Origin: Fictibacillus enclensis
GTDB taxonomy: Bacteria; Bacillota; Bacilli; Bacillales; Fictibacillaceae
Reading direction: 5' to 3'
Length of the DNA stretch: 64,000 nt
Assembly: GCF_001457035.1 (NCBI RefSeq)
Contig: NZ_KQ758617.1
Coordinates: 372,001 to 436,000 of the forward strand
This document shows positions 37,680 through 39,599 of the stretch, one piece after another. Both the position numbers and the translations under genes were made by a program. Within the stretch, counting starts at the first letter, position 1. Every line of letters begins with the position of its first letter. Under the pieces are notes generated by a model, which saw nothing but the letters and a program-made list of their open reading frames with translations, was not told where the DNA came from and searched no databases.

Positions 37680-38411
37680 TCATTTTTCATTTAATCGGGT
37701 TATTAAAACGTATTCTCGTCCTTGGCGGTCTGGAGCTTCTCTAACATCTTCAACAGACAATCCTGCATCATTCAGTGTTTTGATTATTTCCCGAAGACTT
37801 CTAAAGCGCAACGTTGAATCAGAGGTGATTACCGTACCATCTCTTTCGAAAACATAGGTCCATCGAAAAGACACCAAGGAGTCACGAACTTCAGTAACAT
37901 CTGCCCATACATTTACAATGCCACAGTGAGGGACATTCAACCGCTGGTAGGTTTTCTCTTTATTCCATTCTAACCATGCTTGTGCCTAAGGCTTTCTTGT
38001 TTCAAACACCAATCGTCCACTTGGACGCAAAGTGTCTCGGATGGCAAGTAATGTTTCACTCCACTCTTTATCAGTAAGGAAGACTTGAGCTACATTAGCT
38101 GTCATCGTGACAAGACCAACCTTCAAGTGACGGAGATCCAGGGCATTTCCGTGAATCCATCTTACACGGTCAGCGCCTTGTTTTGTTTTAGCCACCTTTA
38201 ATGAAGCTTCAGCAGGGTCCAGCCCAATAACCTTGATGCCTTTCACTGCCAGACGACAGGCAAACGTTCCGGTTCCACAGCCGATATCAAGTACAGTGTG
38301 AGCATCAAATTCATTAACCATAGACTCGTAAAGATCTAAATCAGAACGGTCAGAGTCAAAAGGATCATAAATAGATGCGAGTCTTGGATTCTCAAATATT
38401 TCATCAGCCAT
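37680..38411 (-). pseudogene. Class I SAM methyltransferase with in-frame amber codon
   Basis: Reading from ATG 38411 gives motif I VLDIGCGTGTFACRLA, motif II VIGLDPAEASL and post-I stretches typical of class I methyltransferases, up to ETRKP. TAG at 37986-37988 interrupts, and the same frame continues AQAWLEWNKEKTYQRLNVPHCG... to ITRLNEK. A single substitution (for example CAG or GAG to TAG) explains the stop. The N-terminal part alone (142 residues) lacks the C-terminal beta strands, so it is probably inactive unless the stop is read through. The substrate is unknown. Confidence 0.8.
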
Positions 38412-38564
38412 CAAAAAAAACCCTCCTGTCCAAAACCAAATCCTCCTTAAAGTGCCCCGCCTATATCTATTCTTTTGAGATTATGATTAACCTTTAAGAG
38501 TAATCAAATTGACCATAGAATACAAAAAAGGCAAGAAATAATTGGATTATTTTCTCGGAGAACA

Positions 38565-38573
38565 TGATATAGT
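38565..38573 (+). promoter_or_regulatory. Extended -10 promoter of the attenuator-hydrolase unit
   Basis: TGATATAGT matches the extended -10 pattern TGnTATAAT with one change and lies 50 nt before the leader ORF. No good -35 was seen. Confidence 0.4.
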
Positions 38574-38622
38574 GAAAGGGGGATTTCCCCGTTAGTATTC
38601 AGTAAAAGGAGGCTGCCACGTC

Positions 38623-38652
38623 ATGATTATCAAATGGATGAGAGTCAGATAA
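38623..38652 (+). CDS. Leader peptide MIIKWMRVR
   Basis: A nine-codon ORF with a strong AAAAGGAGG at 38604-38612. The peptide ends Met-Arg-Val-Arg directly before TAA. Met-Arg-Leu-Arg of ErmDL and the wider +X+ (Arg/Lys-X-Arg/Lys) motif cause macrolide-dependent ribosome stalling, so this is probably a sensing leader for the hydrolase 89 nt downstream. Function is inferred from motif and position. Confidence 0.65.
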   Translation: MIIKWMRVR

Positions 38653-38741
38653 TGATAGGTGCAGACCTGCTGCTCCGTTACGAGTAAAAGTTCTGCGCCT
38701 GCTTGCCCGGCGTTGGATAACAAAAGTACGGAGGGATCGTT
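38653..38741 (+). promoter_or_regulatory. Translational attenuator between leader and hydrolase
   Basis: AGGTGCAGA (38657-38665) can pair with TCTGCGCCT (38692-38700). CTCCGT (38673-38678) is complementary to ACGGAG (38728-38733), which contains the hydrolase ribosome site CGGAGGG. A ribosome stalled on the last leader codons would cover the 5' arm and change this folding. There is no T-run, so control is translational rather than by termination. Confidence 0.55.
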
Positions 38742-39599
38742 ATGAAGGAAAAGATAATTTCAATTAATGGAATGGATATTTGTACAGAAAACTTTGGGGA
38801 ACCGGAAGATCCGCCCATTTTACTGATCATGGGAGCCATGTCTTCGCTTGATTGGTGGGATGAAGATTTCTGCTCAGCATTGGCTGCGGAGGGAAGATAT
38901 GTTATCCGGTACGATCACCGTGATTTGGGCAAATCTGTTGTGTATGAACCGGGGACGTCCAATTACACCATTACCGACCTGGCTGATGATGCCATCCACG
39001 TGCTGGACGCGTATGCTTTGGAAAAAGCTCATGTTGTCGGCATGTCCATGGGCGGAATGGTATGTCAGATTCTTGCCGTTCGGAATCCACAGCGCGTCCA
39101 ATCACTGACGCTCATTGCTTCAAGTGTGTTTGGAACAGAACAGGAAAAGCTTCCGCCAATGGATCAAAAAATTCTTGATCACCATGGAAAGGGTTCTTCC
39201 TTAGACTGGTCCGACCGGGATGCGGTTATTTCGTATCTGGCAGGAGGCTGGAGAACACTGGCCGGCTCCAAGCCCTTTGAAAAAGAACGGATGTACCGGT
39301 TGGCAGGAAGAGAAATGAACCGGGCACGGCAGCTGCAAAGCAGGTTCAATCATGCGCTGCTGGGTGGTGGAGAAGAATTTTACGACCGAATGGGTGAGAT
39401 TGCGGTTCCGGCAGTAGTAATCCATGGTACGGAAGATCCTGCTCTTCCTTTTGAGCACGGGAAGGCGCTTGCGAGGGCCATTCCTCATTCTCAATTGATT
39501 TCTCTTGAGGGCTCAGGCCATGAACTGCATCGTACAGATTGGGATACAATCATAGCATCCATTGTAAAAACAAGTTCTCTGATAGAAAATAATAGATAA
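38742..39599 (+). CDS. Alpha/beta hydrolase, EstX/EstT-like (possible macrolide esterase)
   Basis: The 285-residue alpha/beta hydrolase has nucleophile Ser102 in VVGMSMGGM, Asp232 in GTEDPALPF and His260 in GSGHEL. Its opening (ISINGMDICTENFGEPEDPPILLIMG, then WWDEDFC, VIRYDHRD) matches the EstX/EstT group, some of which are serine-dependent macrolide esterases. The upstream +X+ leader peptide and anti-ribosome-site structure suggest antibiotic-inducible expression, which supports that role; the enzyme could otherwise be a general esterase. It is monocistronic with its own terminator. Confidence 0.82.
   Translation: MKEKIISINGMDICTENFGEPEDPPILLIMGAMSSLDWWDEDFCSALAAEGRYVIRYDHRDLGKSVVYEPGTSNYTITDLADDAIHVLDAYALEKAHVVGMSMGGMVCQILAVRNPQRVQSLTLIASSVFGTEQEKLPPMDQKILDHHGKGSSLDWSDRDAVISYLAGGWRTLAGSKPFEKERMYRLAGREMNRARQLQSRFNHALLGGGEEFYDRMGEIAVPAVVIHGTEDPALPFEHGKALARAIPHSQLISLEGSGHELHRTDWDTIIASIVKTSSLIENNR

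Follow-up and report, generated by a model that had tools for sequence, protein, structure and literature searches.

A nine-codon leader that precedes a macrolide esterase gene in Fictibacillus enclensis is very probably part of a drug-responsive translation attenuator controlling this 16-membered-ring macrolide esterase (MLE). Throughout this report, the window designates the whole 64,000-nucleotide stretch of DNA that was analysed, and positions are counted from its first letter. The identity of the gene, the conservation of the peptide among relatives, a conserved pairing potential in the intervening RNA, and a peptide class in common with the leader of the tylosin-resistance gene tlrB are the four observations on which this reading is built.

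The esterase

The MLE is encoded on the + strand at positions 38742..39599 and has 285 aa. Its assignment is based on the NCBIfam models, on the alignment to the EstT chain 11tu, and on its catalytic residues. The protein scored 452.4 bits over residues 1-278 against NF052610, the equivalog model for 'alpha/beta fold macrolide esterase' (cut-off 420), but remained under the cut-offs of the narrow mleCBF model NF053693 (512.8 bits, cut-off 564.5), the EstT model NF041759 (357.3 bits, cut-off 450), and the EstX model NF033124 (332.8 bits, cut-off 600). The protein is therefore an MLE, but not an EstT, EstX or CBF enzyme by those models. Its nearest relatives in the PDB were the EstT and EstX chains 11tu (336.7 bits), 11tv, 11tt, and 11ts. 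The catalytic triad consists of Ser102, Asp232, and His260; where the window protein has this Ser, the solved chains displayed in the alignment have A. A reading made earlier from the sequence only had proposed a complete Ser-Asp-His triad and a place in the EstX/EstT group of macrolide esterases; the triad is borne out by these three residues, and the group by the curated equivalog model together with the alignment to solved EstT and EstX chains.

Macrolide esterases of Gram-positive bacteria were described only in late 2025, with tests performed from artificial promoters (PMC12704417). According to that study, six such enzymes act on 16-membered, not 14- or 15-membered, macrolides, CBF-1 degrades eight 16-membered macrolides, and MLEs raise the resistance of B. 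subtilis little (PMC12704417). Judging from its sequence, the window protein would likewise open the ring of 16-membered macrolides.

Leader ORF and organization of the locus

Upstream of the esterase, on the same strand, the ORF ATG ATT ATC AAA TGG ATG AGA GTC AGA TAA (38623-38652, +) encodes the peptide MIIKWMRVR, with a C-terminal +X+ motif (Arg-Val-Arg). Its ribosome-binding site AAAAGGAGG (38604..38612, +) contains AAGGAGG and places AGGAGG 10 nt upstream of the ATG. The leader stop is separated from the esterase ATG (38742) by a gap of 89 nt (38653-38741), which includes the esterase ribosome site ACGGAGG (38728..38734, +). On direct reading, all coordinates agree with the earlier description of a nine-codon ORF ending in Met-Arg-Val-Arg-stop behind a strong ribosome site, with the hydrolase starting 89 nt past the leader stop. 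The two pairings proposed for the intervening RNA also proved correct: CTCCGT (38673-38678) is complementary to ACGGAG (38728-38733), and 38657-38665 (AGGTGCAGA) pairs with 38692-38700 (TCTGCGCCT). These correspond to the recurring sequestor and anti-sequestor helices of the relatives described below.

A likely extended -10 promoter element, TGA-TATAGT (TGATATAGT), occupies positions 38565..38573 (+), with a transcription start predicted near 38580. Many relatives have ATG-N-TATAGT-like stretches at the corresponding position upstream of the leader; the element is nevertheless a proposal read by eye, as the consensus scanner did not list 38565-38573. The hairpin GGGGGATTTCCCC (38578..38590, +) stands at the presumed 5' end of the transcript, and a GGG...CCC hairpin is found near the same place in 26 of 46 relatives, where it may act as a 5' stabiliser. 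Promoter element, 5' hairpin, leader, and esterase are likely to form a single-gene unit. The sole terminator-like site detected in 38400-38900 precedes the leader; none turned up in the gap to the esterase, and transcription attenuation was rejected for this reason.

Conservation of the leader before related esterases

Related loci comprised 37 from a related-locus search and others from genome searches. Because some genomes were the same assemblies as named records, duplicates were removed by sequence, which left 69 distinct loci out of 101. The set of 62 close homologues is defined by more than 60% identity; L038, matched only from residue 33 onward, and six others below 60% (L043, L044, L092, L110, L111, and L113) were excluded. 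Conservation of a +X+ leader before related hydrolases had been set as a test by the sequence-only reading, and the family passed it: a nine-codon leader ending in [RK]X[RK] occurs 73-98 nt upstream of the gene in 46 of the 62 distinct MLE loci. Altered leaders were found in three loci (L024, MMIKWVGLK; L094, MIIKWIRLKSFMQA; L109, MIIKWVRLNN), and 13 have none. The L094 leader runs beyond RLK into a longer peptide and that of L109 ends in LNN, with ACGGAGG kept ahead of the gene in both.

The 46 leaders follow the pattern M-I-I-K-W-(I/V/M)-(R/K)-X-R, with a change of W to R and of the second I to V in one row each. Lys4 does not vary and Trp5 hardly does; position 7 holds Arg in 28 and Lys in 18, and position 8 can be L, H, Q, V, I, F or E. 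All 46 have Arg at position 9, encoded by five different codons (AGA, CGA, CGT, AGG, and CGC), although only the absence of Lys is free information there, since rows were preselected for the [RK]X[RK] ending. The peptide is thus kept while its codons vary. The leader and a CGGAGG-type ribosome site ahead of the esterase co-occur: 45 loci have both, 14 neither, and 1 and 2 are discordant (Fisher 6e-11, ignoring relatedness). On the protein tree, this association is represented by one independent pair with well-supported branches, and by three in all, and it is not independent of kinship.

Several loci deserve mention in their own right. In L007/L060 (genome G004) and L079 (G313), the leader is intact but the esterase frame is shortened, to 172 and 177 residues. 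Two leaderless esterases of a Priestia-type clade, L029 and L033, have in common an inverted repeat, TTAGAGAA...TTCTCTAA, ahead of the ribosome site and may be regulated otherwise. Another leaderless pair, L010 and L013, has the stretch ATAGCAGCATAA in common about 100 nt upstream of the gene.

A second clade of MLEs, 52-56% identical to the window protein, carries MII(K/Q)(F/Y)IRLR, or a closely similar peptide, some 103-114 nt ahead of the gene. Among its 18 rows, the leader is present in 15, altered in L130, and absent from L111 and L131. The leaders of L125-L127 are MIIKFIRLR with an alternative start, read as GTG in L125; leader groups on the protein tree were assigned with an ATG-only pattern, which undercounts this second leader type by these three.

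Predicted RNA switch

Attenuators of the ermC type follow a four-strand scheme, and we infer stalling, inducer, and switching by a similar logic here. In the absence of drug, the ribosome would complete MIIKWMRVR and depart; strand 1 would then pair with strand 2, and CTCCGT with ACGGAG of the esterase ribosome site (3 with 4), which would keep esterase output low. If tylosin or a related macrolide occupied the exit tunnel, translation would stall with Val8 at the P site and Arg9 at the A site, the footprint of the ribosome ending near 38659-38660. The stall would block strand 1 and leave most of AGGTGCAGA free for TCTGCGCCT (2 with 3), releasing the ribosome site. The esterase would then open the lactone ring and thereby end the signal.

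In the window, the leader hairpin (strands 1 and 2; 38608..38671, +; z -2.43) holds the 5' arm of the anti-sequestor, TAGGTGCAGA (38656..38665, +), which can form 10 bp with the 3' arm, TCTGCGCCTG (38692..38701, +). The anti-Shine-Dalgarno (anti-SD) strand CTCCGT (38673..38678, +) lies between these arms, and its CUCCG:CGGAG helix is 96.1% paired over 46 relatives. When the parts were folded apart, mean z-scores over 47 loci (L092 included, as in the masking model below, but left out of the 46-locus alignments and codon counts) were -2.63 for the leader hairpin (47/47 negative), -1.66 for the SD sequestor (45/47 negative; -0.53 for that of the window), and -2.04 for the anti-sequestor (43/47 negative). 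In the 46-sequence alignment, sequestor pairing filled 81.4% of cells versus 38.1-52.2% when slid, and anti-sequestor pairing 84.2% versus 27.9-49.8%. Counts that anchored the leader hairpin to a single register carry no weight here, since the clade with ATC ATT codons has a shifted register. Covariation was modest: the sequestor score was equalled in 34/500 shuffles and the anti-sequestor score in 17/500, and anti-sequestor pairs with double changes were no more numerous than in shuffles. RNAalifold, with 30 sequences, returned only a sequestor core of 4 bp and a further 4 bp within the leader. A scan of Rfam (E up to 10) gave five sub-threshold matches, none of them relevant. The fold of this stretch of the window was unremarkable (z -0.79, 44/200 shuffles as good); support for the leader comes from conservation, not from the fold of this one stretch.

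Leader hairpin, SD sequestor, and anti-sequestor are three mutually exclusive helices that recur in relatives. Their exclusion appears to match strands 1:2, 3:4, and 2:3 of ermC-type attenuators, with the extra leader helix completing a putative four-strand switch. An off-state in which sequestor and anti-sequestor formed one pseudoknot was dropped once the leader hairpin appeared in the folds.

The cost of opening the SD region was modelled under several conditions. A crude masking of the stalled stretch, with the other RNA at equilibrium, had no clear effect (median gain 0.19 kcal/mol; 29/47 loci in the right direction; -0.50 for the window), and the downstream RNA was therefore modelled with and without the anti-sequestor. 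The median predicted cost was 6.1 kcal/mol for the RNA alone, 3.5 beyond a stalled ribosome at equilibrium, and 1.4 with the anti-sequestor held, the latter lowering the cost in 39 of the 42 loci able to form it; 4 of the 46 loci were excluded, having fewer than 4 possible anti-sequestor pairs beyond the modelled footprint. As a trait of the family, the predicted switch is thus well supported. For the RNA of the window itself the case is weak, because its cost moves only from 4.28 to 4.05 kcal/mol (a change of 0.23) and because the cost rises with the anti-sequestor in L004 and L006, its nearest relatives.

This failure of the modelled anti-sequestor to free the ribosome site in the window and its two nearest relatives would fit a leader that acts without a four-strand switch, the stalled ribosome either preventing the folding of RNA, nascent or mature, or stabilising the message, along the lines of one-hairpin or RNA-stability models. 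The 5' hairpin conserved in 26/46 relatives would suit a stability role. In the second MLE clade, moreover, the leader codons TTCATTCG pair with CGAATGAA just ahead of the gene's ribosome site in 8 of 11 loci, a layout closer than that of the window clade to the one-hairpin arrangement described for tlrB in PMC6851288. However, the window clade has its anti-SD strand outside the leader, and its anti-sequestor is conserved well above the best slid value (84.2% versus at most 49.8%), which makes a leader without the four-strand switch unlikely for this clade, though by no means negligible.

Link to the tlrB leader and likely inducer

The B. subtilis gene tlrB encodes an rRNA methyltransferase conferring tylosin resistance and is preceded by the leader MIIQFIRYR (PMC6851288). 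Toeprint assays and lacZ fusions reported in that work show that this peptide stalls the ribosome in response to tylosin but not to erythromycin; Tyr occupies the P site of the stalled ribosome and the final Arg its A site, and induction requires RYR (PMC6851288). MIIKWMRVR falls within the same nine-residue MII...+X+ pattern, to which it is connected by a graded series leading to MIIKFIRLR and MIIQFIRLR, and it lies upstream of an esterase instead of tlrB. Identical nonamers occur before both gene families. MIIQFIRLR precedes an MLE in L151, L157, L159, L160, and L161, and tlrB in L152, L153, L155, L156, L171, and L179; MIIKFIRLR precedes an MLE in L150, L158, L163, and L164, and tlrB in L165, L166, and L170. 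In one set of 13 loci, 12 were found, L123/L151 and L121/L161 being the same genes seen twice. Both units, leader-MLE and leader-tlrB, are present in genomes G005, G435, and G650. The search used detected no TlrB homologue in the window's genome (1/7 for genomes of the genus).

Based on these data, we regard it as probable that the nine-residue tylosin sensor (MII, K/Q, aromatic, hydrophobic, +X+) is a portable module. It would serve at least two unrelated resistance genes (macrolide esterase and TlrB) in at least two RNA layouts, with the anti-SD outside the leader in the window clade and inside it in the second esterase clade, and would constitute a regulator-less tylosin regulon across the class Bacilli, with both units in the three genomes named above. 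As to mobile elements, an MLE of the second clade with an MIIKFIRLR leader (L148) is carried by a Bacillus arachidis plasmid typed as mobilizable (NZ_CP127373.1). Phage records numbered 2; the plasmid records, 975 in number, were all below 60% identity and mostly of the estX type. The leader was present in 1 of the 2 loci examined.

Tylosin or another 16-membered macrolide, rather than erythromycin, is the likely inducer by analogy, because MIIQFIRYR, the closest tested peptide, responds to tylosin and not to erythromycin, because MLE and tlrB have nonamers in common, and because 16-membered macrolides are the enzyme's substrate class. This refines the sequence-only reading, as does the extra helix inside the leader. 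Induction mainly by a 14-membered macrolide or a ketolide, such as erythromycin or telithromycin, is distinctly unlikely: it would follow the example of ErmDL, which stalls at Arg-Leu-Arg with both drugs as described in PMC8298421, and +X+ motifs are general arrest sites for macrolides and ketolides, yet the leader has its length, its MII start, and its final +X+ in common with a tlrB leader reported as unresponsive to erythromycin (PMC6851288), and the MLEs tested by others spare 14- and 15-membered drugs (PMC12704417).

Gene-blind search for the leader

The degenerate DNA pattern of the leader was also searched without reference to any gene, with the reversed pattern as a control; at class level a slightly different pattern was used, which omits the Met6 of the window itself. 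The leader pattern was present in 19/34 genomes of the family, 39/397 of the order, and 36/398 of the class, whereas the reversed one gave 0, 0, and 1 match in these 34, 397, and 398 genomes. Combined, the three listings comprise 84 distinct places, 40 before MLEs, 32 before tlrB, and 12 before neither; 11 of these 12 lack a clear GGAG-type ribosome site, and most of them overlap longer open frames. The twelfth, MIIKFIRLR with a clear site of this type (L076:1501-1530, strand -, genome G288), has no MLE or TlrB gene close downstream and is perhaps a leftover after gene loss.

Attenuation by amino-acid starvation or another non-drug signal is hardly credible. The leader does hold one Trp and two Arg codons, but relatives replace Trp by Phe or Tyr and Arg by Lys, thus keeping the charge, the genes downstream are resistance enzymes and not biosynthetic ones, and no terminator-like site was detected in the gap between the two ORFs. 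Least credible of all is a chance ORF inside a conserved 5' region: short ORFs are common and the window RNA is not unusually stable, but the residues are conserved despite codon change, 72 of the 84 gene-blind matches precede two macrolide-resistance gene families, and the reversed pattern gave almost none.

Significance of a probable drug-responsive esterase leader

While this kind of mechanism is known, the regulated family (MLE) and the use of one sensor peptide by two families are new to us. Searches of the openly licensed PMC literature revealed no description of a leader before MLEs, and the words 'leader' and 'attenuat' are absent from the main text of PMC12704417. One review in that literature mentions both macrolide esterases and leader peptides, in passages that have no bearing on this question. 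In the same literature, MIIQFIRYR appears only in PMC6851288, and six of the leader peptides (MIIKWMRVR not among them) are not mentioned. If natural MLE genes stay off unless the cell meets a 16-membered macrolide, they could escape susceptibility tests that include no pre-exposure. An identical nonamer before two unrelated resistance genes would also offer a clean test of what makes nascent-peptide arrest tylosin-specific, and many natural variants at positions 4-8 are available for this, beside one leader already toeprinted.

Comparison with known systems

The window protein resembles the Gram-positive MLEs of the CBF-1 type in belonging to the same family, and the Ser-Asp-His triad is described for BRB-1 as well (PMC12704417). 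It differs from CBF in its score under the narrow mleCBF cut-off. Its homology to EstT and EstX (PDB 11ts, 11tt, 11tu, and 11tv) is full-length, yet its scores lie below the cut-offs of these families. Compared with attenuators of the ermC/ermD type, the window unit has another peptide and another gene, no sequence similarity was noticed, and its likely inducer is 16-membered; the +X+ arrest motif and, as predicted for the window unit, the leader hairpin, the SD-sequestering hairpin, and the alternative 2:3 helix are common to both. Relative to the tlrB (yxjB) leader of B. subtilis and its homologues, the downstream gene encodes an esterase and not an rRNA methyltransferase, the peptide reads KW in place of QF, the anti-SD strand of the window clade lies outside the leader with a separate anti-sequestor, and the intrinsic terminator between leader and gene expected of the tlrB family was not detected here. 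Nevertheless, the two leaders are alike in their nine residues, their MII start, their hydrophobic and aromatic middle, and their C-terminal +X+, and, in the account of tlrB given in PMC6851288, also in adjoining a tylosin-resistance gene and in SD sequestration.
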